A stretch of DNA of 50,930 nt, from assembly GCA_027061805.1 (NCBI GenBank), contig JAMOWA010000026.1:1-50930 (forward strand). The letters are read 5' to 3'. Shown here piece by piece: positions 3,407 to 32,994 of the stretch. Made by a program: the position numbers and the translations under genes. The stretch comes from Thermoanaerobaculia bacterium (GTDB lineage: Bacteria > Acidobacteriota > Thermoanaerobaculia > Thermoanaerobaculales > Sulfomarinibacteraceae). Positions within the stretch are counted from its first letter, which is position 1; each line of letters starts with the position of its first letter. The notes below the pieces were generated by a model, which was given only the letters and a program-made list of their open reading frames with translations, was not told the DNA's origin and ran no database searches.

Positions 3407-3429
3407 GTGCGTCCTCCACGGTGAACCGT

Positions 3430-3453
3430 CACCCGCCGCGTTCGTGGCGGGTG
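3430..3453. other. Intergenic hairpin between two minus-strand genes
   Basis: Inverted repeat CACCCGCC / GGCGGGTG with an 8-nt spacer lies between the end of the formiminotransferase gene (3502) and the start of the MauE-like gene (3406). There is no U-tract, so it may be a weak terminator, an attenuator or an mRNA-stabilising stem. Only the stem itself is visible evidence. Confidence 0.35.
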
Positions 3454-3501
3454 TCATTGCACAACAGACGATGGGCGCCGTCTCTTCTCCCGCGCGAGGG
3501 C

Positions 3502-5130: not shown

Positions 5131-5176
5131 GGTCACCTCCTGCGTGCGGCGGGAATCGTACCATCCCGGGCGGGAA

Positions 5177-6208: not shown

Positions 6209-6302
6209 GGGGACATTGTAGACCGGCGGAGACACGCACCGCAGACGCGGCCAGGGTCGGAAACACGGTCGCGGTCGCGGCCAACATTCCGACCGGGGAG
6301 CC

Positions 6303-7019
6303 TCACCCACCGGTGTGGGCCAGGGTCAGGACGGCAACGCCGGCCACCAGCGCGGTCTCCGCCCGGAGGACGTTGGCCCCGAGCACCAGCGGCACCCAGC
6401 CCGCCCGGGCGATCCGTTCCCGTTCCTCGCGCGTGAACCCGCCCTCCGGGCCCACCAGGAAGAGTCTCCCCCTCCCCTCACCCAGCCGGTCCAGCGGCAG
6501 GCCTTCCGGATCGGCCACGACCCCCGGCGCTCCCGCATTCTCCTCCAGGAGCTCCTCCAGCGTCACGGGCCCGGAGAGCTCCATCTCCCAGACCCGGTGA
6601 CACTGCTTGAGGGCCTGGCGCGCGGCACGGCCCCAGTGGGCGAGGCGCCTGGCGGCGGCTCCCGGTCCGCCCTGCGACCGGGCGGCCACCACCGGTACGA
6701 ACCGCTCCACACCGAGCTCCACGGCCCTGGTGACGGCCCGGTCCATGGCCTGCCCCTGGAGCACCCCGAGGGCCACCGTGATCCCGGGCCCTTCCGGCTC
6801 TGGGACCCTCTCCACCTCCTCCACCGCCACCACCGCGTGATTCCGCTTCACGGCGCACACCACTCCCCTCGCCCTCGAACCCCGCCCGTCGGTCAGCACC
6901 ACGGAGGCCCCGGCCGCCCTCCGCAGGACGGCCCGGAGGTGCCGGGCCTCCCCGGGATCCAGCGTGACCTCCCCCGGAGCGAGGCTCCCCGGCGCGACCA
7001 GCAACCACGGATCAGGCAT
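6303..7019 (-). CDS. rsmE: 16S rRNA (uracil1498-N3)-methyltransferase RsmE
   Basis: 238-aa SPOUT-class methyltransferase. The N-terminal PUA-like domain (about 1-75) includes [12 protein letters not shown]. The C-terminal trefoil-knot SAM domain (about 80-235) has QKQ/KQCHR-type residues ([11 protein letters not shown]) and the conserved knot [11 protein letters not shown] and [11 protein letters not shown]. It is the last gene of the hrcA-grpE-dnaK-dnaJ-prmA operon. Its ATG overlaps the end of the prmA remnant by 8 nt, so translation is probably coupled. This gene order is well known in many bacteria. Confidence 0.92.
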
Positions 7020-7209
7020 GGTGCACCACCAGGCCGATCCACTCCCCCAGGATCCGGCTGCGCCCGACCCGGAAACCCCGCTTCTCCAGCTCGCGGACGA
7101 CCGCCTCTTCCTGGGCCGCCAGGAGCCCCGAGAGCAGGATGCCGAGCTCGTCCTCCAGGTGGCCGGGAAGCCGGAACCTGAGGGTGAGGTACTCGGCCGG
7201 GATGGTCAC
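7012..7209 (-). pseudogene. prmA: prmA remnant: ribosomal protein L11 methyltransferase with internal deletion
   Basis: 65-aa in-frame reading frame exactly where prmA sits in the classic dnaJ-prmA-rsmE order. It starts at GTG 7209 in a GTGA overlap with the dnaJ stop. The first ~25 residues (EYLTLRFRLPGHLEDEL) look like a PrmA N-terminus, and the last ~40 (LSGLLAAQEEAVVRELEKRG, then [11 protein letters not shown]) look like a PrmA C-terminus. The whole SAM-binding core, roughly 200 or more residues, is absent. The two halves meet at a segment LLSG that could occur in both parts, suggesting deletion or assembly collapse at a short homology. The reading frame is intact, so a short protein could be made, but it could not be a methyltransferase. 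Confidence 0.6.
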
Positions 7210-8342
7210 CCCTCGTTCGCCAGCTTGCGGCGGAGGCGCTCCAGCAGCCCCTCCGAGGGGGCCGCCTCCTCGCCGCCCAGGAGAGCCGCCTCCCGGAGCA
7301 GCCGCTTCTGCTCCGCGGACAGGTTCCGCGGCACGACGACCCTGAGGTGGACGTGGAGATCGCCGCGACCCCGGCCGTTCAGCGAGGGCATCCCCGCCCC
7401 CCGGATCCGGATCACGTCACCGGGCTGCGCTCCGGGTGCCACCTCCACCTCGCGCTCCTCGCCGAGCACCGTGGGCACCACGAGCCGGGCCCCCAGCATG
7501 GCCTGGAACACCGAGATGGGCAGCTCCATGTGGAGGTCATCGCCCGCCCGCTCGAACACCTCGTGGGGCTCCACGGAGACCACCACGTAGAGGTCACCCG
7601 AGCGTCCCCCACGGACACCGGACTCCCCCTCGCCACCGAGCCGCAGCCGCACACCGTTGTCGACGCCGGGCGGCACGTGGACCTGGAGCGTCACCTCGCA
7701 CTCCACCCGGCCACGCCCGCCACAGGCACGGCAGGGGTTCCGGACGACCTGCCCCTGGCCACGGCACGTGGGGCAGGTCTGGGCCACGGTGAGGAAACCC
7801 CGCCGGTAGGCCACCTGGCCCCGCCCCCCGCACGAGGGGCAGGTCTCGGGGGAGGTGCCGGCCTCCACCCCCGTTGCGCCACAGGCGTCGCACGGCTCCA
7901 TCCGGGGCACCCGGATGGTCTTGTCCACCCCGCGGGCGGCCTCCTCCAGGGTGAGGGACATGGCGAATCGGAGGTCGCTGCCGCGCTGGCGTCCCGGGGA
8001 GGACCGGCGGCGGCGTGTCCCGAACAGGTCTCCGAAACCGAAGAGGTCCCCCAGGATGTCCGCGAAGTCCACGAAGGTCTCCGGGCCCACGTCCGCAAAA
8101 CCCTCGCCACCGAGCCCCCGGTGTCCGAGACGGTCGTACCGACCCCGCTTTTCGGGGTCCGAGAGCACCGCGTAGGCCTCGGAGGCCTCCTTGAAACGCT
8201 CCTCCGCGTGAGGATCGTCGGGATTCCTGTCCGGGTGGTAGCGGATCGCCATGCGGCGGTAGGCCTTCTTGATCTCCTCCACCGAGGCCGACCTCTCCAC
8301 CCCGAGGATCTCGTAGTAGTCTCGCCGTGTTCCTGTTGCCAT
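7206..8342 (-). CDS. dnaJ: Chaperone protein DnaJ
   Basis: 378-aa Hsp40 co-chaperone that stimulates DnaK ATPase and delivers clients. J-domain at about 8-72 with HPD at 36-38. A Gly/Phe-rich region follows (about 85-110). The zinc-binding domain (about 145-215) has four CxxCxGxG repeats: [24 protein letters not shown] and CRACGGRG. Then come the two substrate-binding beta domains and the dimerisation end. The stop overlaps the prmA remnant start (GTGA). It follows dnaK after 13 nt in the same operon. Confidence 0.96.
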
Positions 8343-8355
8343 TTGGGGTTCTGCG

Positions 8356-10215
8356 TCAGCTTTCCTCCGAGCCCTTGTCCGGCTCGGTCGACATCCCGCC
8401 GATGGCGGAGAGCGGATTGTACATGATCACCTGGGCGAGGACCTCGGAGGCGTCACCCACCGCCAGGATGGCCTCCTCGAGCACCGAGCGGTCCTCGCTC
8501 GTCAGTGCCTTCTTGGCCCGGTTGAGCGTGGATCTCACCATGTCGCGGTCCTCGGTGGAGAGACTTCCACCGAACTCCCTGAGGACCCTCTCGTTGGTGT
8601 AGAGCAGGCCCTCCAGGCGGTTCTGGATCTGCCGGATCTCTCGCCGTTTCTCGTCGTTCTGCCGGTACTTGTCGGCCTCGGCGATGAGGGCGTCGATCTC
8701 CGCCTTGGACAGGCCGCCGGCGGGGTTGACCTCGATGCCCTGCTCCTTCCCCGTGGCCAGGTCTCTGGCCGACACGTGGACGATCCCGTTGGAGTCGATG
8801 GAGAAGGTCACCTCGATCTGGGGGACGCCCCGCGGAGCGGGGGGGACACCCACCAGGTCGAAGCGGCCCAGCGACCGGTTCTCCGCCGCCAGGCCTCGCT
8901 CGCCCTGCAGCACGTGCACCTCCACCGTCGTCTGGTTGTCGGCCACCGTGGTGAACACCATGGATTTCTTGGTGGGGATGGTGGCGTTCCGCTCGATGAT
9001 CTTGGTGAACAGCCCGCCGTGGGTCTCGATGCCCAGCGACAGGGGTGTCACGTCCAGAAGGATCAGGTCCTTGACCTCGCCCTGGAGAATCCCGCCCTGG
9101 ATGGCCGCACCGATCCCCACCACCTCGTCGGGGTTGATGTCCTGGCAGGGCGGACGTCCGAAGAAATCGGTCACCACCTGGTGCACCAGCGGCATGCGGG
9201 TCTGCCCGCCCACCAGGATCACCTGGTCGATGTCCTCCGGAGAGAGCAGGGCCGCTTCGAGGGCGTTCCGGCAGGGATCCAGGGTGCTCTCCACCAGGTC
9301 CCGGACCAGGTCTTCCAGCTGGCTGCGCGTCAGGGTGACCTGGAGGTGCTTGGGGCCCGTGTGATCCGCGGCGATGAAGGGGAGGGAGATCTCGGAGCTC
9401 TCCTCCGTGGAGAGCTCGCACTTGGCCGCCTCGGCCGCCTCCTTGATCCGCTGCATGGCCATGGTGTCGCCCTCGAGATCGATCCCCGTCTCCTCCTTGA
9501 ACTGCTCCAGGAGGAAGGCCATGACGCGCTGGTCGAAGTCCTCTCCGCCGAGGAAGGTGTCGCCCGCGGTGGACTTGACCTCGTACACCCCGTCCCCGAT
9601 CTCGAGGATCGAGATGTCGAAGGTGCCTCCACCCAGGTCGTACACGGCGATGGTCTCGTGCTTGTCGCTCCCGAACCCGTACGACAGCGAGGCCGCGGTG
9701 GGCTCGTTGATGATCCGGAGCACTTCCAGCCCGGCGATGGTTCCCGCGTCCTTGGTGGCCTGGCGCTGGGAGTCGTCGAAGTAGGCCGGCACGGTGATGA
9801 TGGCCTGGGTGACCTCCTCTCCAAGGAAGGCCTCCGCGAACTCCTTGATCTGTCGGAGGATCAGCGAGGCGATCTCCTGGGGGCTGTGCTGGCGTCCCTG
9901 GATCTCGATGAACGCGTCGCCGTTGGGCGCCTCCACGATGGAATAGGGCACCAGCCGCTTGGTCCTGGCGACCTCCTCCGAGTTGAAACGCCGCCCGATG
10001 AGCCGTTTCACCGCGTAGACCGTGTTCTCGGGGTTGGTCATCATCTGGCGGCGCGCGATCTGCCCCACCAGGCGCTCGCCCGCCGAGGCGAACGCCACGA
10101 CCGACGGGGTGGTCCGGGCGCCCTCCCGGTTGGGGATCACCACGGGTTTGGTGACGTCCACGACCGCCGCGCACGAGTTCGTGGTACCCAGGTCGATGCC
10201 GATGATCTTTCCCAC
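8356..10215 (-). CDS. dnaK: Chaperone protein DnaK (Hsp70)
   Basis: 619-aa Hsp70. The nucleotide-binding domain starts with [10 protein letters not shown], with the second phosphate loop [17 protein letters not shown] and adenosine motif [13 protein letters not shown] conserved linker ([15 protein letters not shown]) leads to the substrate-binding domain and a helical lid ending near [14 protein letters not shown]. It lacks the classic EEVD-type tail, as expected for bacteria, and is slightly shorter than E. coli DnaK. It lies between grpE and dnaJ, so the complete KJE system is encoded in one operon. Confidence 0.97.
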
Positions 10216-10223
10216 TGGGCCTC

Positions 10224-10895
10224 CTACTGCTGCGTCCCCTCATTGCCTGTCGTCTCGGGACGGCCCGCTCCCGGAGAGGGCTCCACTGCCACCGCGACCA
10301 TGGCGGGACGGATCAGCCGCCCACCAAGACTGTACCCCTTGGCCAGCACCGAGACCACGGTTCCAGGTTCGTACTCCGAACCCTCCACACGCTGGACGGC
10401 CTCGTGGAACTCCGGATCGAACCGTTGGCCCCTGGGATCGATCTCCTCCAGGCCCCTCCGGGCCAGGACATCCCAGAGCTGACGGGCGATCAGCTCGATC
10501 CCCGTGCGGAAGGAGTCCACATCGGTCTCGCCCTCGTGGCCCAGGGCCCGCTCGAAGGTGTCCAGCACGGGCACGAGATCCCGCACCATCTCCTCCGCCG
10601 CGACCCTGCGCATCTCCTCCTTCTCGCGCTCCACCCTCTTGCGGAAGTTGTCGAACTCGGCCAGCTTCCTCAGGTAGAGCTCCCTGAGCCGGTCCATCTC
10701 CGCCTTCAGACGGTCCATCTCCTCGAGAATGGCACCTTCCGGCGGTCCACCGTCCGCCTTCCGGCCAGCGCCTTCCTTCTGGCCGGTGCTCTCCTGGACC
10801 TGGAGACCGTGCTCCTCGGGAGCAGCGGAGGGCGGCTTCTCCTCGTCACCGTCATCGACGGTGATGAACTCGATCACATTGTCGTCGTCCATCAT
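10224..10895 (-). CDS. grpE: Nucleotide exchange factor GrpE
   Basis: 223-aa DnaK co-chaperone. An acidic low-complexity N-terminus (about 1-60) is followed by a long coiled-coil ([20 protein letters not shown], then [12 protein letters not shown]) and the C-terminal beta domain with [21 protein letters not shown] and [11 protein letters not shown]. The start ATG directly abuts the hrcA stop codon. It is transcribed with hrcA, dnaK and dnaJ. Confidence 0.94.
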
Positions 10896-11954
10896 CTACT
10901 GTACTCCCACCTCGGACTGTTGCCCGTCACCATCCAGCATACTCGTCAGCCTGTCCCCGATGAACTCCACCACGGGAACGATCTTCAGATAGTCCATGCG
11001 GCGGGGCCCCACGACCCCCACGGCACCGATCCGGCGCCCCTCGTGGAAGAAGAGGGTCGTCACCATGCCAAGCTCCCCGGGACCGGTGAGCTCGGACTCG
11101 GTGCCGATGACCACCGCGGTGCGTTCTGTGGTCAACGAATCGCGGATCACCTGGAGGAGCGCGGCCCGGTCTTCCAGGGCTGACACCGCCGAGCGGAGCC
11201 GCCCGGCGTCGGTGAACTCCTCGGCCTCCACGAGCTTCTCCGCACCCACGACCACGACCTCACTGGAGGACAGGTCCTCCACGAACAGCTGATCCACGAC
11301 TCCCACCACCAGGGCCCCGAAGGTCCCCTCCTCGCCGGAAGCTCCCCCGAACCGCGTCCGGACATCGGTCACGATCCGTTCCATGGGTTGCCCGGAGAAG
11401 CGGAAATTGAGGAAATTGGAGACCTCCTGAAGCCGCTCCTGGGCGACCTCGCCGGGAAGCTCCACCACCCTCTTCTCCACCCGGCCGTCATCGGTCACCA
11501 CGATCCCGAGAACCCTGCCGGCTCCGAGCCTGATGAGCGAGACGACCTCCAGCAGCCGTTCTTCGTCCAGGGGACGGGCCGCAAGACCGGCCTCCCTCGT
11601 GACGTGGGCCACCAGCTCGGCCACCCACCCCAGGTCCTCCACCAGCTCCCGGCGGCGCAGGGCCATCTGGGCCTCGAGCTCCCGCCGCGTCCTCGCGGGC
11701 AGGGCGGGAACACGGGCCACCGAGTCCACCACCAGCCGGATTCCCGGATCGGTGGGCACCCGGCCGGCCGACGGATGGGGCTGCTGGAGGAGTCCCTTCC
11801 CCTCCAGCTCCGACATCACGTTCCGGATGCTGGCGGGAGAGAGATCCACGGACCCCGAGGAGGCGACACAGCGTGACGAGACGGGCTGGCCGTCCCGGAT
11901 GTACCGGACCACGACCTCCTCGAGCACCGCCATCTCACGCCGGCTCAACTCCAT
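10896..11954 (-). CDS. hrcA: Heat-inducible transcription repressor HrcA
   Basis: 352-aa repressor of class I heat-shock genes. The N-terminal winged helix (about 1-75) has LSRREMAVLEEVV and DLSPASIRNVMSELEGKGLLQQPHPSAGRVPTD (split here as SPASIRNVMSELEG and HPSAGRVPTD). The C-terminal part is the GAF-like dimerisation domain. Start ATG 11954 gives the standard family N-terminus (MELSRREM) with GGGAG upstream; a longer open frame to 12035 is not needed. It heads hrcA-grpE-dnaK-dnaJ-prmA'-rsmE. I could not find its usual CIRCE operator (TTAGCACTC-N9-GAGTGCTAA) in the short divergent gap to 12014, so control may use a diverged site. Confidence 0.93.
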   Translation of the reverse strand: MELSRREMAVLEEVVVRYIRDGQPVSSRCVASSGSVDLSPASIRNVMSELEGKGLLQQPHPSAGRVPTDPGIRLVVDSVARVPALPARTRRELEAQMALRRRELVEDLGWVAELVAHVTREAGLAARPLDEERLLEVVSLIRLGAGRVLGIVVTDDGRVEKRVVELPGEVAQERLQEVSNFLNFRFSGQPMERIVTDVRTRFGGASGEEGTFGALVVGVVDQLFVEDLSSSEVVVVGAEKLVEAEEFTDAGRLRSAVSALEDRAALLQVIRDSLTTERTAVVIGTESELTGPGELGMVTTLFFHEGRRIGAVGVVGPRRMDYLKIVPVVEFIGDRLTSMLDGDGQQSEVGVQ

Positions 11955-12013
11955 ACCAACTCCCGACACCGTCGAAGAATGCACAACTGACGCGCTCATT
12001 GTACCATCGAGCC

Positions 12014-12832
12014 GTGGAGTCGCTCGACGTCGCACTGGTGGGTCCCGGACGACTGGGTTCGGTTCTCCTCCATCTCCTGCCCGATTCGGGGCACAGGGTG
12101 CGCGCCATCCGGTCCCGCCGGCCCCCGGTGGGCCCGAGGGAGAATGCAGGTCCCGAAAGCCCGGTCAGCGACACCTGGGACGCTCCGGAGCCCTGGCCCC
12201 GCGTGGATCTTGTCCTCGTGACCGTCCCGGACCGCTTCATCGGCTCCGTGGCCCGACGACTCGCCGAGGAGAAGCTTGTCGGGGACGGGACCGTCGTGCT
12301 GCACACCTCCGGCCTCCTGACCGGCACCATCCTCGGGCCCTGTGGGGAGAGCGGCGCGGCGGTGGGCTCCTGGCACCCCCTCCAGAGCTTCGCTCCGAAC
12401 CTCGGAAAGGTGTCTCTCAGCGGCATCTTCTGTGCCATCGAGGGGGACCGGGAGGCCGTGGCCGTGGGAGAGCAGCTCGCCGGGGACCTCGGGATGAAGC
12501 CATGGCACATCGAGCCCGGAGCCAAGGTCCTCTACCACGCAGCCGCCGCCATGGCCGCCAACCTGAGTCACCTCCTGGTGGTGGAGGCCCGCCGCCTGCT
12601 CACCACGACCGGCCTCACCGGAGAGGATGCCGCTGCTGCCCTGGCCCCCCTCATGCATACCAGCCTGGAGTCGGCGCTGCGCGCCTCCGGCCTCGAGGGA
12701 CTCACCGGCCCCATGGCCCGCGGCGACCTCGAGGTCATCGCACGCCACCTGGAGGTGCTGCCGCCCCACCTCGCCGCGGCCTACGAGGCGCTGTGGAGGC
12801 ATGTGTCGGAGACGGTGGTCGGCAGCGGGTAG
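12014..12832 (+). CDS. Rossmann-fold oxidoreductase-like protein with DUF2520 domain
   Basis: 272-aa cytoplasmic protein. The N-terminus is a dinucleotide-binding Rossmann fold (VALVGPGRLGSVLLHLL, GxGxxG type), then VDLVLVTVPDRFIGSVAR and the conserved GSWHPLQSFAP. The C-terminal helical DUF2520 domain contains KVLYHAAAAMAANLSHLL. Relatives resemble 6-phosphogluconate dehydrogenase/ProC-type folds and often sit near pantothenate genes, but no such genes are adjacent here, so the substrate is unknown. Start GTG 12014 places the GxGxxG motif at the usual distance from the N-terminus; no strong SD is visible. It is divergent from hrcA. Confidence 0.75.
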   Translation: MESLDVALVGPGRLGSVLLHLLPDSGHRVRAIRSRRPPVGPRENAGPESPVSDTWDAPEPWPRVDLVLVTVPDRFIGSVARRLAEEKLVGDGTVVLHTSGLLTGTILGPCGESGAAVGSWHPLQSFAPNLGKVSLSGIFCAIEGDREAVAVGEQLAGDLGMKPWHIEPGAKVLYHAAAAMAANLSHLLVVEARRLLTTTGLTGEDAAAALAPLMHTSLESALRASGLEGLTGPMARGDLEVIARHLEVLPPHLAAAYEALWRHVSETVVGSG

Positions 12833-12878
12833 CGGCGGCAGGGATCGGCAGCGGTGGTCGGCAGCGGTGGTCGGCGGT
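12813..12878. repeat. Short direct repeats at the 3' end of the DUF2520 gene
   Basis: The 13-16 nt unit CGGTGGTCGGCAGCGG occurs at 12813 (inside the end of the coding frame) and at 12852, and partially again at 12865. These repeats run straight into the long inverted repeat that starts at 12876. Together they mark the left edge of an 800-bp non-coding, repeat-rich gap. Confidence 0.7.
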
Positions 12879-13017
12879 CACCTCCGGGTCGTTCTGTCAT
12901 GGGAGGCCTAGCTTCCGGGCGCCCCGGTGTCAAGGATGAACTTCCGGCCGCTGCGCGGCCCTTGACACCGGGGCGCCCGGAAGCTGAAGGGCCTCCATGA
13001 ACGACCCGGAGGTGACC
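12876..13017. repeat. 142-bp near-palindrome (large inverted repeat)
   Basis: Left arm 12876-12935 and right arm 12960-13017 are reverse complements with few gaps. The inner 26 bp of each arm (12910-12935 against 12960-12985, beginning AGCTTCCGGGCGCCCCGGTG) match perfectly. The outer 19 bp (GGTCACCTCCGGGTCGTTC) also match perfectly. Only a few extra bases in the left arm and a short mismatch separate the two blocks. The 24-nt centre contains its own small hairpin (GGCCGC TGC GCGGCC). No gene lies inside. It could be a cruciform, a miniature transposable element or a strong transcription barrier. Confidence 0.85.
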
Positions 13018-13048
13018 ATGACCCATGCCCTCATCCCCCACCCACCCG

Positions 13049-13080
13049 GTGAAGAGGTAAAGACGTGAAGAAGTGAAGAC
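13049..13080. repeat. Repeated GTGAAGA heptamers
   Basis: The word GTGAAGA occurs at 13049, 13065 and 13073 within a purine-rich stretch in the non-coding gap. It lies just after the large inverted repeat. No coding function is evident. Confidence 0.6.
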
Positions 13081-13125
13081 GCCCCCCTCCCCTCCGGAGA
13101 AGGGCGCACCCGGCGGCGCGTGCCG

Positions 13126-13181
13126 GGCACGGCGTTTCCCGTGACGCTTCCCGAATCCCAACTCCAGGGAAACGCCGTGCC
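13126..13181. repeat. 15-bp inverted repeat with 26-nt spacer
   Basis: GGCACGGCGTTTCCC (13126-13140) is perfectly inverted at 13167-13181, and the pairing extends by several bases with one mismatch. It is a second independent inverted repeat in the same non-coding gap. No U-tract follows, so it is not a standard terminator. Confidence 0.75.
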
Positions 13182-13411
13182 GGGCTCCGCACGGGAAGAA
13201 CGCGCGGAGAAGTGGCCCGCCATCGTGGGAGGCGGCCCGCCCGCACTCCGGCGAGGCCGAAGCCCATCCCGCCTACGAAGCCGTCCTGCCTCGCCGGAGG
13301 AGGACGGCGGGGCCGTGCGACAGCACGGCCACGGCCGCCGAGGCCCGGAGAAGGGCCGGGGCCGGCGTGCGGAGGGGCGTCCTGACGTCCTAACCTCCTC
13401 ACCCTCCTTCG

Positions 13412-13439
13412 TTTCACGTTTAACGTTTCACGTTTCACG
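13412..13439. repeat. Four tandem heptamers TTTMACG
   Basis: Four contiguous 7-nt units: TTTCACG, TTTAACG, TTTCACG, TTTCACG. This is a compact tandem microsatellite in the non-coding stretch upstream of the MglA-like gene. The remaining part of the 12833-13635 gap holds no gene I can support. Confidence 0.8.
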
Positions 13440-13578
13440 GATGGGCGGGTGGACATCGCACACAGACACGGTCACGGACACCGCCGGGAACGAGGTCTCC
13501 CGGGGTCGGTGGCGCCACCACGATCTGGGAACAGGCCCGGGACGACCGCCGTTTCCGGACCCTCCGGCGGAGCCCCGA

Positions 13579-13613
13579 TTGACCCTTGTGTCCGGGGTGT
13601 GTAAGCTTTACAC
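13579..13613 (+). promoter_or_regulatory. Possible promoter with overlapping palindrome upstream of the MglA-like gene
   Basis: TTGACC at 13579-13584 is followed after 17 nt by TAAGCT, a weak -10. The -10 region lies within a perfect palindrome GTGTAA-GCT-TTACAC (13599-13613). It ends 22 bp before the start codon at 13636. The hexamer fit is modest, so the promoter call is tentative; the palindrome is a direct observation and could be an operator. Confidence 0.4.
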
Positions 13614-13635
13614 GCCAGAGGAGGTTGGGAGCCGG

Positions 13636-15135
13636 ATGGTTTTCTTCAACTGGGCCACGATGCAGATGGCGGCCAAGATCGTGTACTACGGTCCCGGCCT
13701 GTGCGGCAAGACCACGAACCTGAGCTTCATCTACGCCAAGACCTCTCCCAACTCCCGGGGCGAGATGGTCTCCCTGGAGACCGAGTCCGACCGGACGCTG
13801 TTCTTCGACCTGCTCCCCATCGAGGTGGGAACCATCGGGGGGTTCAAGACCCGGCTCCAGCTCTACACCGTTCCCGGGCAGGTGTTCTACAACACCACCA
13901 GGAAGCTCGTGCTCAAGGGCGTGGACGGCGTGGTCTTCGTGGCGGACTCCCAGCGGCCCATGCGAGAGGCCAACGTGGAGAGCTTCGCCAACCTGAAGGA
14001 GAACCTCTCCGAGCTGGGCCTGGACCTGGAGGAGCTCCCGCTGGTCCTCCAGTACAACAAGCGGGACCTGTCGAACATCCTGTCCATCGACGAGCTCAAT
14101 GCCGATCTCAATCCGAGGGGTGTGGTTCCCTTCTTCGAGGCCTCGGCCATCAACGGTGACGGCGTCTTCGAGACCCTCAAGGAGATCACGAAGATCACCC
14201 TGAAGAAGCTGCGGAAGCGCATGGCGGCCCCGCAGGGCACCACCGGGCCCCGCGCCCCGGAGGTCAAGCCGCCATCACCGGCCCGGCCCCGCGCCTCCAT
14301 CTCGGCGGCGGCCCTCGCCCGTGCGGCCGAGGAAGGTGTGGAGGAGGCAGCGCCGGTCGCGGCGGCCCAGGTCCCGCCCGCCGAGGAACCGCGCGAGCGG
14401 GTCCTGGAGGTTGTTCCGCCCGCTGCCGGAGACGAGAACGGCGCCGCGGCAGCGCCCGTGGACGTTTCCCACGAGGAACCAGACGGACCCCATATCCCGT
14501 CCCCTGACGAGATCACGGCGGTGCAGCACATCGAGACACCCGGAGAAGCAGCGGGCCTCCCGAAGGCCGGACTGGAGGAGGAACGGGAACCGTTCGAGGA
14601 GATGCCGGCCGCGCCGGAGGTGGAGAGGGGGGCAGGGTTCGAGGCGGTTCCGGAGATGGAAGCCAGTTCCCGGAGCGATCCTCCACCGGAGATGGCTGCC
14701 GAGGATGCTGCCGAGGACGTCACCGTGGACTTCGAGCGTTCGACCGACGAGATCGTGAAGGTCACGCCTCCGCCCATCAAGAGGGTCCATGTCTCCAACC
14801 AGATGGACATCCTGGCCGAGCTGGACAGCCTCAGGGAGCAGGCCACCATGGGATCCTCCCGGGCGTCCAGGGGCGCCAGCCAGCCCGATCTGGACATCGA
14901 GTCCCTCCTGGCCGGCGACACGCCGAGGAAGCGCGAGGTCGAACGCACGGTCTCCCAGAACGTGAACTCCGACGTCTTCGCCAGGACCAGCAGCCTCCAG
15001 GTGGCCATCCGGCTGATGGACACCCACGGTGACACCATCCAGACGCTCGCTCCCATCTCCCTGCCCGTGGACGACATCTCGAACCTGGACACCCTTGCCG
15101 TCCGGCTGAAGCTGGACCTGGAGAATCAGAAGTGA
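13636..15135 (+). CDS. MglA-type small GTPase with long C-terminal extension
   Basis: 499-aa protein. Residues 1-195 form a Ras-like GTPase of the bacterial MglA class: P-loop GPGLCGKTT at 19-27, IGGFKTRLQLYTVPGQV (switch II/G3 region), and NKRD as the G4 guanine-specificity motif in VLQYNKRDL. MglA marks the leading cell pole in gliding and pilus-driven motility. A disordered Ala/Pro/Glu-rich segment (about 200-400) follows. A folded-looking end (about 455-499: SLQVAIRLMDTHGDTIQTL, then PVDDISNLDTLAVRLKLDL) lies beyond it. Typical MglA is about 195 aa, so about 300 residues are extra. No mglB is adjacent. Its stop overlaps the next GTG start (GTGA), coupling it to a lytic transglycosylase. 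The long open frame upstream of 13636 lacks coding features. Confidence 0.85.
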   Translation: MVFFNWATMQMAAKIVYYGPGLCGKTTNLSFIYAKTSPNSRGEMVSLETESDRTLFFDLLPIEVGTIGGFKTRLQLYTVPGQVFYNTTRKLVLKGVDGVVFVADSQRPMREANVESFANLKENLSELGLDLEELPLVLQYNKRDLSNILSIDELNADLNPRGVVPFFEASAINGDGVFETLKEITKITLKKLRKRMAAPQGTTGPRAPEVKPPSPARPRASISAAALARAAEEGVEEAAPVAAAQVPPAEEPRERVLEVVPPAAGDENGAAAAPVDVSHEEPDGPHIPSPDEITAVQHIETPGEAAGLPKAGLEEEREPFEEMPAAPEVERGAGFEAVPEMEASSRSDPPPEMAAEDAAEDVTVDFERSTDEIVKVTPPPIKRVHVSNQMDILAELDSLREQATMGSSRASRGASQPDLDIESLLAGDTPRKREVERTVSQNVNSDVFARTSSLQVAIRLMDTHGDTIQTLAPISLPVDDISNLDTLAVRLKLDLENQK

Positions 15136-17150
15136 AACCGGCCTGCCGCGTCCGGCACACGGTGCCGGCACTGGCCCTCGCCCTTGTCGCAGCCGGCCTT
15201 CCCGGGTGTGCCACGGCCCCCCCGGCCGAACGGAGCGCCTCGACGGTGGTGGTGTACCCTCCCGACCACTCCGAATGGGAGAGGAACGCCCGCGAACAGG
15301 CCGACGAGCTGATCGACAGGGCCAACCTCGCCATGGAGTCGGACCGTCCCGGGGAGGCCCTGGGGTGCGTGGACCAGGCGCTCGAGATCGTGCTCTCCCC
15401 GCCTCCCGGCTACGCCGTGCGGCCGGCGTACCTGGACTACATCGCCGAGCTGCTCCAGGATGCCGACGCCATCGAGGCGCAGCTCGATGACACCGGGGCT
15501 GATGACCTCTTCATTCCGTCCGAGGATTTCCTGGACCTGCTGGCGGAGATCCCCGAGGAGGAAGGCCCTCCCGGAACGAGGGTGGGCCCCGGCGAGCTCC
15601 CGCCGAGCGACTTTCCACTGGTGCTGAACTCCCACGTGGAACGGTTCCTGGAGGCCTTCACGAGCACCGGGGAGTACAGGAGCCGCATCGAGCGCGGGCT
15701 CGAGCGTTCGGCCCGCTACCTCCCCATGATCCGGGAACGTTTCCGTTCGGCGGGGCTCCCCGAGGACCTGTCCTACCTCCCGCTCATCGAGTCGGCCTTC
15801 TCGCCCACCGCCTACTCCCGCGCCAGGGCCGCCGGCATGTGGCAGTTCATCGCCTCCACCGGCCGGCTCTACGGGCTCAAGGTCTCCTCGCTGCTGGACG
15901 AGCGAAGGGACCCCGAGCGCTCCACCGACGCGGCGGTGGCCCACCTGGCGGACCTCCACGCCCAGTTCGGGGACTGGTACCTGGCCCTGGCGGCGTACAA
16001 CTCCGGAGCCGGCAACGTGCGCCGGGCGATCCGGCGCTCGGGCAGCCGCGACTTCTGGAAGCTCCGTCGTTACCTGCCCCGCGAGACCCGGAACTACGTC
16101 CCGGCGTTCATCGCGTCGGTGATCGTGGCCAGGAACCCGGAGCTCTATGGGCTCGACGTGCCCGAGGAACAGGACTGGGAGTTCGACACCATCGAGGTTC
16201 CGGACGCCCTGGACCTCCAGTTCCTGGCCACGAAGATCGATGTCCCCCTCGAAGAGCTCCGCAAGCTGAACCCGGCCATCCGGAGAGACCTGACCCCCGC
16301 CCGCCACACCACGATGGTGCGCCTCCCGGCAGGGACTGCGGAGCACGCACAGGCGGTCCTCCAGTCCACGCCACGGTCAGACTGGGCCCCACGGGTGCTC
16401 CACAGCGTACGGCGCGGCGAATCGCTCTACGCCATCGCGCGGCGGTACGGGACCTCCGTCGGGGCCATCCGCCAGGCCAACGGGATCCGCGGCAACCTGA
16501 TCCGTCCAGGCCAGACCCTGGTGGTGCCCAGAAAGGCGGGCATGGCGTGGTCCGCTCCGGCACGGAAGGCTTCCGTCCGCCACGCTCGTGGAGGAACCTA
16601 CACCGTCCGGCGGGGCGATACCGTGTGGGATATCGCCCGGTCCTTCGGCGTGCCGGTGAGCCGCCTGCGTGCCGCCAACGGCCTCTCCCGGCGTGCCGTG
16701 ATCCGGCCCGGACAGAAGCTCGTGATCCCCTCGGGATCCTCCCGGACCAGGGTCTCCGCCACCGCGAAGAGCTCCACCCGCCGGACGGGCGCCTCGGGAA
16801 CCTACACGGTCCGCCATGGTGACACGGTGTGGGACATCGCCCGGGCCCATGGCATTCCGGTGAGCCGCCTGCGTGCCGCCAACAGCCTCTCCCGGCGCGC
16901 CGTGATCCATCCGGGCCAGAAGCTCGTGATCCCCGGCGGAAACGGCAGGACAGCCTCGGTGCACCCCATCGGCTCCTCCTCGCGGCTGGAGGGCGGGACC
17001 TACACCGTCCGGCGGGGCGACACGCTCTTCAACATCGCCCGGAAGTTCGGCATCACCGTGGGCGACCTGCGGAGGGCCAACGGGATCCGGGGGTCCCGCA
17101 TCCACCCCGGCGAGGTGCTGACGATCCCATCAGGGCGGGCCAAGGGCTGA
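15132..17150 (+). CDS. mltD: Membrane-bound lytic transglycosylase (MltD-like) with four LysM domains
   Basis: 672-aa predicted lipoprotein that cleaves peptidoglycan glycan strands. The signal peptide ends at LPGC (lipobox). The SLT catalytic domain (about 185-340) has the Glu in PLIESAFSP (E220), GMWQFIASTGRLYGL and LALAAYNSGAGNVRRA. Four LysM peptidoglycan-binding modules follow at about 421-465, 488-533, 556-601 and 621-667, each opening with a V-R-x-G-[DE] motif and closing with PGQ/E-x-L-x-[VI]-P. LysM 2 and 3 are almost identical in DNA, showing recent internal duplication. MltD usually has one to three LysM modules. Start GTG overlaps the MglA-like stop. Confidence 0.92.
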   Translation: MKPACRVRHTVPALALALVAAGLPGCATAPPAERSASTVVVYPPDHSEWERNAREQADELIDRANLAMESDRPGEALGCVDQALEIVLSPPPGYAVRPAYLDYIAELLQDADAIEAQLDDTGADDLFIPSEDFLDLLAEIPEEEGPPGTRVGPGELPPSDFPLVLNSHVERFLEAFTSTGEYRSRIERGLERSARYLPMIRERFRSAGLPEDLSYLPLIESAFSPTAYSRARAAGMWQFIASTGRLYGLKVSSLLDERRDPERSTDAAVAHLADLHAQFGDWYLALAAYNSGAGNVRRAIRRSGSRDFWKLRRYLPRETRNYVPAFIASVIVARNPELYGLDVPEEQDWEFDTIEVPDALDLQFLATKIDVPLEELRKLNPAIRRDLTPARHTTMVRLPAGTAEHAQAVLQSTPRSDWAPRVLHSVRRGESLYAIARRYGTSVGAIRQANGIRGNLIRPGQTLVVPRKAGMAWSAPARKASVRHARGGTYTVRRGDTVWDIARSFGVPVSRLRAANGLSRRAVIRPGQKLVIPSGSSRTRVSATAKSSTRRTGASGTYTVRHGDTVWDIARAHGIPVSRLRAANSLSRRAVIHPGQKLVIPGGNGRTASVHPIGSSSRLEGGTYTVRRGDTLFNIARKFGITVGDLRRANGIRGSRIHPGEVLTIPSGRAKG

Positions 17151-27859: not shown

Positions 27860-29081
27860 CTCCCGTGCTCTCGCGGCCCTCGTCCTGACCGGCGTCCTGG
27901 CTGCCTGGGGGTGTGCCACCACGGGGCCACCCGCACCGCCGACCGCCGAGCTGGCCTTCCCCTCTCCCCTGACGGGACCGGGCAGGCCGGCGGTTCCCTC
28001 TCGCGCGGCCCGGGAGCTGCAGAGGGGCTGGGCGGCCCTGGCGGCGAACCGGCTCGAGGAGGTCCGGGACCGCGCAGCGGAGGCGGGCCCCGGACCGGCC
28101 TCCACGCTCCTGGCCCTCCAGGCCGGGCTGCTGGAGGATCCGGCAACCGCGGTGTCCGGCCTCGAGGCCCTCGTGAAGGAGCGGCCCCGGTACGCCGCCG
28201 CCTGGTTGACCCTGTCCGAGGCCGCCGAACGGGCCGGAAACGAATCCCTCGCCCTGGAGGCCGCACGCCGCGGGGCCGCCCTGTGGGGCAGCCCCACGTG
28301 GCGGGCGCGGGCCACACGACTGGAGGACCGCCTGGTGGGCGAACGCCTGGCTCGTGGACAGGAGGCTCTCGAGGCGAACGATCCCGTCGCAGCCGCGGAC
28401 ATGGCCGCCCGGGTGCTCCAGGTGGATCCCGGCAACCGGGAGGCGCGGCTCCTGCAGGCCCGTGCCGCTCTCGTCACCGGTGACGACGCCACCGTCGAGG
28501 AAGCGCTGGAGCCCCTGGGCAACGATTCCGAGGCGCTCCTGCTGCGCGGGCGCCTCGCCGAGAAGCACCACCACTGGATGGCGGCCTACCGCCTCTACGA
28601 GGCCCTTCCGGAGGACCATCCGTTGCGCGAGGCGTCCATGGACAGGGCCAAGCACGCCTGGAGGGTATCCAATCTCCCGTCCTACGTCCAGGAGGCCCTC
28701 CACTCCCCCGCCCTGACCCGGGCGCAGCTGGCGGTGCTCCTCGTGAGCCTCGCCCCCCAGGTGGAGTCCCTCGCCACCGGAACACCGCCACTGCTCTCGG
28801 ACATCGTGGCCCTGCCCTCCCGACGGGAGATCGTGTCGGCCGTGAGGGCCGGCCTGATGGACGCGGATGCGCTCGAGCACACCTTCCGTCCGGAGGCCCC
28901 CGCCGATGCGGAGACCGTGCACCGGGCCATCGATCGGCTCTGCCGGCTCCTGGGCCGGACCGGTCCCGAGTGGTGCAGCGGAGAGACCGGAGATGGAGGC
29001 TGCATCTCGCTTGGCACGCACCCCTCCGGCGACCGGGTGGCTGCGCTCCTCAAGACCCTTCTGGAGGACCCCGAACCATGA
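27843..29081 (+). CDS. TPR-containing lipoprotein
   Basis: 412-aa predicted lipoprotein with a signal peptide ending in AWGC (lipobox-like). Helical repeats with TPR character (ALEANDPVAAADMAARVLQV, DPGNREARLLQARAALVTG, LAEKHHHWMAAYRLYEAL) run through about 50-290. The C-terminal region (about 295-400) resembles S-layer-homology-like segments (LTRAQLAVLLVSLAP) and contains two Cys. Start ATG 27843 overlaps the end of hfq by 17 nt. The function is unknown; such proteins commonly act as envelope scaffolds. Confidence 0.7.
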   Translation: MRTVSDSRALAALVLTGVLAAWGCATTGPPAPPTAELAFPSPLTGPGRPAVPSRAARELQRGWAALAANRLEEVRDRAAEAGPGPASTLLALQAGLLEDPATAVSGLEALVKERPRYAAAWLTLSEAAERAGNESLALEAARRGAALWGSPTWRARATRLEDRLVGERLARGQEALEANDPVAAADMAARVLQVDPGNREARLLQARAALVTGDDATVEEALEPLGNDSEALLLRGRLAEKHHHWMAAYRLYEALPEDHPLREASMDRAKHAWRVSNLPSYVQEALHSPALTRAQLAVLLVSLAPQVESLATGTPPLLSDIVALPSRREIVSAVRAGLMDADALEHTFRPEAPADAETVHRAIDRLCRLLGRTGPEWCSGETGDGGCISLGTHPSGDRVAALLKTLLEDPEP

Positions 29082-29749
29082 GTGATCGAAGTATTCAGCT
29101 GCTCGGCAGGATCGATCTCTTCTCGGAGCTGGGGGAGGACGAGCTCCGCGCCATCGGCGAGGTGGCCCATGTGCTCAATCTCCCGAGGGACTCCCGGATC
29201 TTCGACGCCGGCGACCCCTCCGACGCCCTGTTCGTGGTGGCGAGCGGCAAGGTGAACATCGTGATCACCAGCAGCGATGGCAAGGAGCTCATCCTGGCCG
29301 TCCTCGGGGCGGGCCAGGTCTTCGGGGAGATGGGGCTCCTGGACGCCGCCCCCCGCTCCGCTGCGGCCATCACCGCCTCTCCCGCCGAGCTCGTGTCGAT
29401 CTCCAGGAGCGATTTCGAGGCGCTGCTGGATCGCCAGCCCCCACTGGCCCGCAAGCTGCTCACCATCATGTCGCAGAGGCTGCGACGGGCCAATTCCAAG
29501 ATGGAGAGCCTGGCCTACATGGACGTGGCCGGACGTCTGGCGCGGTACTTCCTCGACCTGGCCCGGGACCACGGCCAGTCCCTGGGCAACGGGTGGGTCG
29601 TGATCCGTCGGCCCACCCACGCGGACATCGCCCACTCCATCGGCACCAGCCGCGAGACGGTCAGCCGGATGATCAACGACTTCGAGAGCCAGCTGGGCAT
29701 GGTGAACAAGGGACGGTTCACCTACATCCGCGAGAACCTGCTCACGTAG
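29078..29749 (+). CDS. Crp/Fnr-family transcriptional regulator
   Basis: 223-aa regulator. The cyclic-nucleotide-binding beta-roll (about 10-125) has the phosphate-binding motif FGEMGLLDAAPRSAAA, including Glu and Arg that bind cAMP in Crp. A long dimerisation helix and a C-terminal winged HTH (about 150-223) follow, with THADIAHSIGTSRETVSRMI. The recognition helix carries E-T-V-S-R; E..SR in FNR reads TTGA, while Crp has RE..GR. No Cys is present, so there is no iron-sulfur sensor. Start ATG overlaps the previous stop (ATGA). It is the last large gene of the 22.5-29.7 kb chain. Confidence 0.9.
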   Translation: MSDRSIQLLGRIDLFSELGEDELRAIGEVAHVLNLPRDSRIFDAGDPSDALFVVASGKVNIVITSSDGKELILAVLGAGQVFGEMGLLDAAPRSAAAITASPAELVSISRSDFEALLDRQPPLARKLLTIMSQRLRRANSKMESLAYMDVAGRLARYFLDLARDHGQSLGNGWVVIRRPTHADIAHSIGTSRETVSRMINDFESQLGMVNKGRFTYIRENLLT

Positions 29750-30257: not shown

Positions 30258-30283
30258 AAAAGGGCGCGGCTTCCGCCGCGCCC
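30258..30283 (-). terminator. Rho-independent terminator of the cytochrome operon
   Basis: On the minus strand GGGCGCGGC-GGAA-GCCGCGCCC (9-bp stem, tetraloop) is followed by TTTT. It lies 21 bp after the stop codon of the tetraheme cytochrome gene. Confidence 0.85.
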
Positions 30284-30304
30284 CGTTCTCGATATCCCGA
30301 AGGA

Positions 30305-30793
30305 CTACATTCCCGCCAGCTCCCTGGCGAGCTCGGCGTTCTTGAACTCGTGGATGGCGTCCTTGTTCTCGAGGTTGTCCTCGAACACCACATTCTTGGA
30401 GTGATCGTCCCCGGTGTGGCACCCGTTGCAGGTCTCCTGGGTCGCGATGATGAGGCCGTTGGCCCTGGCCTTCTCCAGATCCTTCATGATGCTCATCTTC
30501 TTGTAGTCGGAGCCCGGGCCGTGGCACGCCTCGCACTGCACGCCGGGAAGGTTCTCGTCGGCGTTGGTGGCGTGGCACTTGAGGCAGTCCGCACTGAACT
30601 TCCGCTCCGTGGAGGCCTTCGCCACCTCGGTGGCCCTGGCGTGCTTGGTGCCCTGCCAGGAGGTGTACTGTACCTTGTGGCACATCTTGCACTTGGTCGC
30701 CCCCACATGGGTGTGGTCGCCCGCCTGGAGACCCAGCGCGATCGGCACCACCACCATGACCCCCACGATTCCCCACTTCGTCAGATTCCTCAT
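30305..30793 (-). CDS. Tetraheme cytochrome c, cytochrome c554-like
   Basis: 162-aa exported electron carrier. An N-terminal signal peptide (about 1-25, with VGVMVVVPIALGLQA) is followed by four CxxCH heme motifs: CKMCH, CLKCH, CEACH and CNGCH, plus extra His residues as axial ligands (GDHTHVG, GTKHAR). The heme spacing and the QCEACHGPG segment resemble cytochrome c554/multiheme family members. Start ATG 30793 has AGGAGGATCGG just upstream, a strong RBS. It is the third gene after the 11-heme cytochrome and cytochrome b, and is followed by a terminator. It is likely the periplasmic electron exit or entry carrier. Confidence 0.88.
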   Translation of the reverse strand: MRNLTKWGIVGVMVVVPIALGLQAGDHTHVGATKCKMCHKVQYTSWQGTKHARATEVAKASTERKFSADCLKCHATNADENLPGVQCEACHGPGSDYKKMSIMKDLEKARANGLIIATQETCNGCHTGDDHSKNVVFEDNLENKDAIHEFKNAELARELAGM

Positions 30794-30894
30794 CCGATCC
30801 TCCTTTCCATCACCCCCATCACGGACCCATGACAGTCCCGTGACAGTCTTCAACAACAATACCATGATCGGGCACGATCTATTCCCCCGCCTCA

Positions 30895-31680
30895 TCACGA
30901 GGGGACCGTCCTGATCACCTCGGGAAGCGCCCTGAGCCAGACGACGAACGCGCCGCAGGCCAGGACCACGATGGTCGAGATGGCGACGAAGATCAGGAAC
31001 TTCTTCGTGGAGACCTCGGCCGGCGTGAACGTCTCGCCGCTCCACAGGCGCGCGAACTCCCTGGGATGCTCCTCCAGGTAGAGCTCCCGCGGCAGCTCCC
31101 CCGTGAAGATGGACGTGTTCCAGTGCTTCCAGTGCACGAAATAGGAGTGCCACGTCAGGATGGCCAGGGCCGCCAGCGTGGCCTCCCCACCGTGGGCCGC
31201 CTTGGCCGCCAGGATGATCTCCCCGGGCATGTACCGGGCAAAACGCACCGGGTAGAGCATCAGGATGCCGGTGGCCACCATGAGGAGCGTTCCCCAGACC
31301 AGGGAAAGGTACTCCAGCTTCTCCGGCCAGGAGTAGCGGTCGTACTGGGGCTCCGACGAATCCAGGCCCAGGTTGTAGCGAATCTGCTGCACGAAGTCTT
31401 TCGCGTCCTGGAGCGTCGGGATCATGGTCCAGGGGTACCTGCGAACCCACTGGAACCAGATGAGCTCCAGCACGTGGTAGACGAGCTGCAGGGCCATGAT
31501 GGTGCCCAGGAGGTGGTGGACGAACCGCATCCGGGAGACCCCCCCGAAGATCAGCACCACACCCTTCGCCCAGGACGTCGAAGGGAACTTCTGGGGAAAC
31601 CCGGTGATCACCAGGCCCACGAAGGTCACGAGCATGATGAGGTGCCCCACGATGTGACGGCGTTCGAATCTGCGGATCAT
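30895..31680 (-). CDS. Membrane cytochrome b subunit (FdhI/Ni-Fe hydrogenase b-type like)
   Basis: 261-aa inner-membrane protein with four or five hydrophobic helices: HLIMLVTFVGLVITGF, FVHHLLGTIMALQLVYHVLE, YLSLVWGTLLMVATGILMLY, LAALAILTWHSYFVHW and LIFVAISTIVVLACGAFVVWL. His residues at helix ends (RRHIVGH, RFVHH, YHVLE, TWHSYFVHWKH) are good heme-b ligands. It resembles the gamma subunit of formate dehydrogenase and prokaryotic cytochrome b561. Start ATG 31680 has GGAGGTGCATC upstream, and the 11-heme gene stop overlaps it (ATGA). It probably exchanges electrons between the quinone pool and the attached multiheme cytochrome. Confidence 0.85.
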   Translation of the reverse strand: MIRRFERRHIVGHLIMLVTFVGLVITGFPQKFPSTSWAKGVVLIFGGVSRMRFVHHLLGTIMALQLVYHVLELIWFQWVRRYPWTMIPTLQDAKDFVQQIRYNLGLDSSEPQYDRYSWPEKLEYLSLVWGTLLMVATGILMLYPVRFARYMPGEIILAAKAAHGGEATLAALAILTWHSYFVHWKHWNTSIFTGELPRELYLEEHPREFARLWSGETFTPAEVSTKKFLIFVAISTIVVLACGAFVVWLRALPEVIRTVPS

Positions 31681-32903
31681 GATGCACCTCCTCCCCCGTG
31701 ATGCCGGCGTTTCCGGGTCCTGTAGACGTCCGTGGCGATGAAGAGCAGGAAGAACCCCACCACGCTGGGAATCAGGATCTTGTAGGCCAGCTTCACGTAG
31801 TAGATCCAGGGATACCTGTCGGGGCTGGGAACGTAGTGCCCCGTCCACGCGCTGAGGTACCTGGGCGTGGCGCCGGGGTGGCATCGCTGACAGTGCCTGA
31901 GGAGGTTCTCCTCGATCTGCTCCCGCCCCTGGTCGTGGACGGCGTACACGTCATGGTACCCGTGGCAGTCGTAGCAGACCGCCTGGTTCAGGGGCTGGTC
32001 CGGGGTGACCTCCTCGAAGAGCTCCGCCGTCGTGCCGTGGAAGTCGGCCACGTAGGTGGAGAAGACCTCGGTGGACAGGCCGTACCTGCCCATGAGCTCC
32101 TCGTTGGCGTGGCAGTTGCCGCACAGCCTGGGGCTGCTGGCCCGGAACCTCGGGCTCCTGGGGTTCGGAGTCTGGTGGGCCTGGTGGCAGTCCACGCAGG
32201 TGGGCACGTCCGGGTTGTCATCGGCCATGAGCGCGGCACCGTGGACGCTCTTGCGGTACTTCTCCGCAATGCTGCCGTGGCACTGCCCGCAGGTGAAGGA
32301 GATCTGCCGCCGTGCCGTGCGCGAGCCCACGGCCCTGACGGGACGGATGTCGTGGGACCCATGGCACGAGATGCAGGTGGCGGAGCCGGTCAGGCCCGCC
32401 AGCTCCACACCCTGTCCGTGGACCCCGTCCAGGTACTTCCCCTCCTCGTGACACCGCAGGCAGACCCCGGGAACGTTGTAGGGATGGATCGGCGATCGGG
32501 GATCGTTGGGGGGGTAGATGGCGTGGGCACCATGGCAGCCCCAGCACTGAACCACGAAGCTGGAGCCCCCGAGCGGATCCCTGTGCACCGAGTTGTTGAT
32601 CACGTCCACCACGGCCGGGTGGCAGCTCACGCAGGGGTTCTCCAGCCGGGTCTCCTTCGGATGTGGAAACCTCGTGATGTCCACGTGACAGTCGACGCAC
32701 TCCATGCCCATGTGGGACGGACACCCCCCGGGATCGATCACCAGCTCCTGGAGCCGTTCCTCCGGGAGCGTCTTCCCCAGCGCCTGCCCGGCCGTGAACA
32801 GGATCTCCGGATCGGCGTGACACTCCCGGCAGTCCAGTCCCTGGCCCAGGACGGGCAACGCCAGCCCCACCACAGCGATCACCGTCGTGAAAGCAATCCG
32901 CAT
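31677..32903 (-). CDS. Membrane-anchored 11-heme cytochrome c
   Basis: 408-aa exported protein. A signal peptide (RIAFTTVIAVVGLALPVLGQ) is followed by 11 CxxCH heme motifs between residues about 25 and 341 (CRECH, CVDCH, CVSCH, CWGCH, CLRCH, CISCH, CGQCH, CVDCH, CGNCH, CYDCH, CQRCH). A single C-terminal transmembrane helix (about 368-392, LIPSVVGFFLLFIATDVY) ends in a basic, His- and Gly-rich cytoplasmic tail. Many additional His residues can serve as distal ligands. I recognise no fixed family. It is fused by translation (ATGA) to the cytochrome b gene, so the pair looks like a quinone-linked periplasmic electron conduit. Start ATG 32903 follows GGGGGGAGCC. Confidence 0.85.
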   Translation of the reverse strand: MRIAFTTVIAVVGLALPVLGQGLDCRECHADPEILFTAGQALGKTLPEERLQELVIDPGGCPSHMGMECVDCHVDITRFPHPKETRLENPCVSCHPAVVDVINNSVHRDPLGGSSFVVQCWGCHGAHAIYPPNDPRSPIHPYNVPGVCLRCHEEGKYLDGVHGQGVELAGLTGSATCISCHGSHDIRPVRAVGSRTARRQISFTCGQCHGSIAEKYRKSVHGAALMADDNPDVPTCVDCHQAHQTPNPRSPRFRASSPRLCGNCHANEELMGRYGLSTEVFSTYVADFHGTTAELFEEVTPDQPLNQAVCYDCHGYHDVYAVHDQGREQIEENLLRHCQRCHPGATPRYLSAWTGHYVPSPDRYPWIYYVKLAYKILIPSVVGFFLLFIATDVYRTRKRRHHGGGGAS

Positions 32904-32920
32904 GGCTCCCCCCCGCCGTG

Positions 32921-32994
32921 AGTATGTTTGGATTTTCACATGCTTGTCAACCCCAGAAAGTGTTGATACAACAATAGATGTTTGTATGTTGATA
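32921..32994 (-). promoter_or_regulatory. Cytochrome operon promoter and upstream TGTTGATA repeats
   Basis: On the minus strand TTGACA (32950-32945) and CATACT (32926-32921) are separated by 18 nt and lie 18 bp before the start codon at 32903. The sequence upstream of the -35 is strikingly AT-rich for this genome. It contains a small palindrome TGTTG-ATA-CAACA (32961-32973) and a direct repeat TGTTGATA at 32961 and 32987, spaced 26 bp apart. These could be activator or repressor sites. The -35 match is perfect, the -10 has 4 of 6. Confidence 0.6.

Follow-up and report, generated by a model that had tools for sequence, protein, structure and literature searches.

An operon for a probable quinone:cytochrome module of CbcL/Mco type, in a split form with 11 hemes, in a Thermoanaerobaculia bacterium

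Organization of the operon

The window, a stretch of 50,930 nucleotides from a Thermoanaerobaculia bacterium, contains an operon of three cytochrome genes, referred to below as cytA, cytB and tetraheme. These genes and the associated features are listed here in the order in which they are read.

32921..32950, minus strand: sigma-70-like promoter, TTGACA-18-CATACT, 5' of cytA (sequence match and conservation)
31677..32903, minus strand: cytA, 11-heme c-type cytochrome of 408 aa (11 CxxCH)
32841..32903, minus strand: signal-peptide-like N-terminus of cytA, residues 1-21 (putative, from hydrophobicity)
32466..32636, minus strand: two-heme insert of cytA, residues 90-146, which distinguishes the 11-heme from the 9-heme form
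31734..31790, minus strand: C-terminal membrane helix of cytA, residues 372-390, equivalent to the first helix of CbcL-type fused proteins
31677..31680, minus strand: ATGA overlap of cytA stop and cytB start (4-nt overlap in 20/20 related loci)
30895..31680, minus strand: cytB, FdnI/HydC-like diheme cytochrome b of 261 aa (PF01292)
30305..30793, minus strand: tetraheme, c554-family periplasmic carrier of 162 aa (4 CxxCH, PF13435)
30261..30284, minus strand: intrinsic terminator, a 10-bp GC-rich stem followed by a T run

A first-pass annotation had described a 408-residue cytochrome with 11 heme motifs and one C-terminal membrane helix, followed by a b-type cytochrome, a tetraheme protein and a strong terminator. 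This order was confirmed: the 11 CxxCH motifs and the hydrophobic helix were found in cytA, cytB scored above the PF01292 cut-off (37.7 bits, cut-off 30.1), and the four-motif tetraheme gene precedes a terminator whose fold had a z value of -4.1 against shuffled sequences. The first two genes had also been called translationally fused, which is wrong, as the TGA of cytA lies inside the ATGA (31680-31677) where cytB starts, and two separate polypeptides are encoded. The two proteins are probably coupled in translation. Six of the 20 loci with this overlap are 9-heme loci from another family of the class.

The statement that the operon lacks an enzyme subunit also held, since none was found among its genes, and the flanking genes encode a Ser/Thr kinase with a WD40-like propeller (5' of cytA) and a 108-aa protein (3' of tetraheme). 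The kinase gene was considered as an operon member and set outside, because a conserved promoter-like site lies between it and cytA and because other relatives carry a thymidine kinase gene at this place. At this site, TTGACA followed by CATGTGAAA occurs at the same position in the four other same-family orthologues. Positions 32918-32990 of the window, 5' of cytA, also hold an ATACAA-N10-TTGTAT inverted repeat and two TATCAACA repeats, and a gene for a Crp-family regulator is found near the operon (28970-29749).

Properties of the three cytochromes

The 11 CxxCH motifs of cytA compare with a mean of 0.08 and a maximum of 3 in 20,000 shuffled sequences. Residues 1-19 are hydrophobic (mean hydropathy 2.07). 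The AlphaFold model of the protein reached a pLDDT of 53.7 with 17 sequences and of 76.1 with 72 sequences, and contains a helix at residues 365-401 for which the pLDDT is mostly over 85.

In an alignment of 12 eleven-heme sequences (A1), exactly 11 His outside the CxxCH motifs were invariant and no Met was invariant besides the start. As 11 hemes are thus matched by 11 invariant His and no Met is conserved, cytA looks like a bis-histidine wire devoid of a catalytic heme. In a deeper alignment of 72 sequences (A4), the 57 nine-heme homologues kept nine motifs and nine of the His, each in at least 56/57 sequences. Both motifs of the two-heme insert (heme His 95 and 124; distal His 107 and 127), together with His127, fell in a gap in 57/57 of these homologues, and position 107 was a His in only two of them; the insert was kept in 13 of the 14 eleven-heme rows. 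An earlier placement of the extra hemes at 91 and 148, made from A1, was dropped, since A4 puts both in one gap. The simplest reading of the alignments is that cytA consists of a 9-heme bis-His core and a contiguous insert carrying two hemes and two His.

The 11-heme family, which the first-pass annotation had not recognized, corresponds to the 9-heme core of a split module of wide distribution, with this insert added. Along its entire length, cytA aligned with the heme portion of fused CbcL-like proteins. cytA scored below the cut-offs of the DmsE/MtrA decaheme model TIGR03508 (47.1 vs 192.2 bits) and of the NrfH model TIGR03153 (33.3 vs 134.2 bits). Among the hits listed, structural matches were weak, the best Foldseek hit of the moderate model (pLDDT 76) having an E value of 5e-3 (6t5e), while structure comparison (VIA) gave a Z of 8.9 with an rmsd of 10.2 over 238 residues (4n4n_E) and OcwA (6i5b) a Z of 5.9. 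These weak hits were to HAO-type multiheme proteins, OcwA and OmhA, and do not suffice for assigning a fold or a function. By sequence, only short or weak matches to solved structures were found for cytA and for tetraheme.

For cytB, a profile of 17 orthologues found only FdnI among solved structures (1kqf_C, E=1.2e-15), and a single-sequence search found no close relative. His13, His55, His163 and His178 aligned with His18, 57, 155 and 169 of FdnI, its four heme-b ligands according to the literature, and all four are invariant. The Asn and Gly of the FdnI quinone site (Asn110/Gly112) are not conserved as such in cytB. The protein scored below the formate dehydrogenase equivalog TIGR01583 (34 bits, cut-off 115.85) and the hydrogenase equivalog TIGR02125 (28, cut-off 121.5), and no catalytic subunit of formate dehydrogenase or Ni-Fe hydrogenase is linked to it in the operon.

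The tetraheme protein scored 40.6 bits against PF13435 (cut-off 20.8) and remained below the Nitrosomonas c554 equivalog NF043010 (42.2 vs 400). Only three invariant non-motif His are available for its four hemes, so that one of them may not have His as its sixth ligand, a situation known for c554. Of the 16 genomes of the order with cytAB, 14 contain the gene, which adjoins cytB in 11; the two that do not are cut by a contig end. It was also found in 16 cytAB-lacking genomes of the two families searched, often after the same kinase gene or after the thymidine kinase gene. Since it also occurs in genomes that lack cytAB, tetraheme is best regarded as a periplasmic carrier of general use, which would be fed by cytAB, and not as a dedicated subunit. 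In relatives from the second family of the order, CcmF is encoded beside tetraheme and DsbD beside cytA.

Distribution and proposed electron route

Close cytA homologues (E below 1e-140) were detected in 16 of the 37 genomes of the two families searched, and the 14 closest homologues translated, outside the window, all have 11 hemes. A wider genome scan, which gives a lower bound as it covers 80 matches, the best of at least 569, yielded 79 further cytA loci, mostly from Chloroflexota (Anaerolineae), with some from Acidobacteriota, Tectomicrobia, Planctomycetota and Actinomycetota. In Chloroflexota, it is a 9-heme form of the pair that is widespread, and its cultured carriers include Anaerolinea thermolimosa and Bellilinea caldifistulae. 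Among these best 80 matches, cytB follows cytA in 77 of the 79 loci, the other two being cut by a contig end. A cytochrome with at least 5 hemes lies on the same strand within 1.5 kb upstream in 45/79 loci of the same set; these are nearly all from Chloroflexota, and about 14 of the upstream cytochromes have lipobox-like motifs. Recurrent around the loci of this best-80 set are NrfD/FeS/octaheme sets, HisKA_3/NarL two-component systems and NapC-type cytochromes, whose counts are overstated because some rest on a small PSCyt1 domain common to cytB extensions.

An expanded version of the cytAB operon was found in one genome (L139, G021, 6951-16304, minus strand), where a single co-oriented run comprises cytA-cytB, a second, 8-heme cytA/cytB pair, an 18-heme protein, the tetraheme and a 20-heme protein. 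Among the 9-heme acidobacterial pairs, three are followed by a sensor kinase and a NarL-type regulator (L046, L047, L126) and two by a gene for a membrane peptidase of M48/M56 type (L050, L126).

Elsewhere in the genome, one cluster encodes a DmsE-type decaheme of the GSU2203 family (357 bits, cut-off 325), a GSU2204-family barrel, an OTR-like octaheme-family protein and a DUF3373 protein. The gene for this outer-membrane barrel, beside the decaheme (L136, G000:C13:12000-31900, 5632-7767, minus strand), has an in-frame TGA (...PIFDG*AGGIMGG...), probably a selenocysteine codon, because NCBIfam NF041027 names the family (seleno)protein. In this genome, the trio has no outer-membrane conduit gene linked to it. 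A strong DmsE-type decaheme (E about 1e-40 or better) was found in 13 of 16 cytAB genomes and 17 of 21 others, and three cytAB-bearing relatives (81-91% complete) showed none. The presence of the decaheme thus does not track cytAB across the order, which leaves the link of cytAB to a particular conduit unproven.

Taken together, an FdnI-type diheme b protein with its four ligands, a predicted all-bis-His wire, a small carrier and the lack of a catalytic gene support the first-pass view of a quinone-linked conduit, and it is very likely that cytAB-tetraheme is such a wire. In the proposed route, cytB in the cytoplasmic membrane would exchange electrons with the menaquinone pool through its two b hemes, a role suggested by its fold family and ligands. 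Electrons would pass to cytA, the membrane-anchored periplasmic wire of eleven bis-His c hemes; cytA would be docked on cytB in one complex, as suggested by the retained overlap of their genes and by the matching layout of fused homologues. From cytA, they would be handed to tetraheme as soluble periplasmic carrier, used generally in this bacterial order, the most likely exit being a porin-cytochrome conduit leading to a metal oxide, a humic substance or a partner cell. The net direction would be quinol oxidation in anaerobic respiration, and is the least certain step. Our favoured reading, held to be more likely than not, is that the three genes specify a menaquinol:cytochrome c oxidoreductase of CbcL/Mco-like type in split form, with its carrier, and that electrons are exported towards extracellular acceptors, probably through an outer-membrane conduit; direction and final partner are inferred.

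Three other readings were weighed against electron export. The flow could be reversed, with cytA fed by tetraheme or by another periplasmic or extracellular donor (a reduced sulfur compound, Fe(II) or a partner cell), and cytB reducing quinone. This is unlikely, even if b subunits of the FdnI/HydC type are usually quinone reductases and cytB matches FdnI: neither the trio nor the loci with listed neighbours have a donor-oxidizing enzyme linked to them, and the relatives belong largely to the Anaerolineae, a group known chiefly for anaerobes. Fe(II) oxidizers contain homologues of CbcL/MtrH/MtoC, and as this family is proposed to work in both directions (PMC6295460), the direction is the weakest step of the export scheme; the best-studied fused relative is, against reversal, a quinol oxidase (PMC9129911).

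Alternatively, quinol would be oxidized and the acceptor would be a periplasmic terminal reductase or peroxidase, encoded elsewhere and reached through tetraheme. We consider this rather improbable: no reductase was found to travel with cytAB in the loci with listed neighbours, where other multiheme cytochromes, some of them lipoprotein-like, recur instead. In its favour are the lineage-wide occurrence of tetraheme beside different genes, the OTR-family protein encoded in the genome and the three cytAB-bearing genomes in which a strong decaheme conduit candidate is missing. The trio could finally belong to Dsr/Apr sulfur respiration, supplying electrons to sulfite/APS reduction or draining them from it. 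The genome does encode DsrAB, AprA and an HmcC-like NrfD protein with heme motifs, but these dsr/apr genes lie on other contigs than the trio. Furthermore, DsrB exceeded its cut-off in 7/16 cytAB-bearing and 11/21 cytAB-lacking genomes of the order; as DsrB does not track cytAB, a sulfur link appears highly improbable.

In this acidobacterial genome, DsrAB adjoins the HmcC-like NrfD protein, whose heme motifs are in its C-terminal part (L137, G000:C8:33000-47000). A few kb from aprA, a 646-aa protein (L138, G000:C45:70000-88000, 7819-9759, plus strand), for which NCBIfam gave no match, joins a cytA-like heme domain with 9 motifs to a TauE/SafE sulfite-exporter domain.

Fused homologues and known systems

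Together, cytA and cytB are co-linear from end to end with fused CbcL-type proteins. The same genome contains a frame of 1057 aa (L135, G000:C9) in which 23 hemes precede a cytB-like domain. cytA aligned with this frame at residues 404-772 and also at 37-355, so that the frame carries two cytA-like modules. The single helix after its heme part and its b domain match, in order, the cytA anchor and cytB, which places the split in the loop after the first helix. The likeness to cytA and cytB amounts to about 30% identity to each; the paralogue differs from the split pair as a single polypeptide with two tandem heme modules and a separate branch in the b-domain tree. In this locus (496-2574 and 2672-5845, minus strand), the fused protein is followed by a 19-motif cytochrome, and the same couple occurs in a second genome (G009, L141). 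Fused frames with 11 hemes are also present in relatives.

In a tree of 122 b domains and FdnI, the 105 split sequences formed one group (UFBoot 98, aLRT 99) apart from 11 fused ones. The 11-heme acidobacterial group, in which an 82%-identical orthologue (L031) represented the cytB of the window, is one branch inside the split group.

A survey describes CbcL/MtrH/MtoC proteins as single polypeptides with 3-23 hemes, present in 15 phyla, with none found in Chloroflexi (PMC6295460). Like these, cytAB combines an N-terminal periplasmic bis-His multiheme part, with 11 CxxCH, and a HydC/FdnI-like diheme b part. The two parts are, however, encoded by separate genes in 20/20 loci, and cytAB is on this account regarded as a variant and not as a member of the family. 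The split form shows that surveys of fused CbcL undercount. We tentatively suggest that split cytA-cytB may be a major class of quinol:cytochrome oxidoreductase that has not been listed so far, and the entry to extracellular electron transfer for Thermoanaerobaculia-type Acidobacteriota and many Chloroflexota, of which the 11-heme form with its tetraheme partner would be a specialized acidobacterial version. If so, a 9- or 11-heme anchored cytochrome gene ATGA-overlapping an FdnI-like b gene would be a searchable marker pair for the quinone-linked export of electrons by uncultured members of the Acidobacteriota and Anaerolineae, whose acceptors are mostly unknown.

No close match to a characterized complex, which might have given the operon a known role, was found; the nearest systems differ as follows. 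FdnI of E. coli formate dehydrogenase-N (1kqf) shares the diheme b fold family and the four His ligands of cytB, and is partnered by formate dehydrogenase and iron-sulfur subunits, neither of which is encoded in the cytB operon. CbcBA of G. sulfurreducens is encoded by two genes. As described (Joshi et al. 2021, cited in PMC12307469 and PMC9129911), it is an inner-membrane bc-type quinol oxidase for low-potential acceptors, and the likeness to cytAB is one of description.

Geobacter sulfurreducens CbcL (GSU0274) was compared by description, the sequence comparison having been made with other fused homologues. Its nine-heme domain is bis-His (PMC9129911), and joining the cytA anchor to the helices of cytB (four core and one C-terminal) gives six helices, as in CbcL. 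Both have a small periplasmic multiheme partner, the triheme c7 PpcA for CbcL and the c554-like tetraheme here. CbcL carries 9 hemes in one polypeptide, whereas here the two-heme insert gives 11 and two genes are split after the first helix. Nevertheless, split cytAB very probably works like CbcL.

The Mco system of ANME-2 archaea consists of a VhtC-like cytochrome b and a separate 7-11-heme cytochrome (PMC9012536). Separate b and multiheme genes in one cluster, up to 11 hemes and a hydrogenase-type b protein lacking a hydrogenase are shared with cytAB, as is the proposed transfer of electrons from a membrane carrier to cytochromes (PMC9012536). This likeness, too, is drawn by description; Mco is archaeal, uses methanophenazine and has the b gene first, whereas the c gene comes first here. 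From these comparisons, cytAB is regarded as a variant, split and with 11 hemes, of an already known kind of device, the quinone:cytochrome module of CbcL/Mco type.
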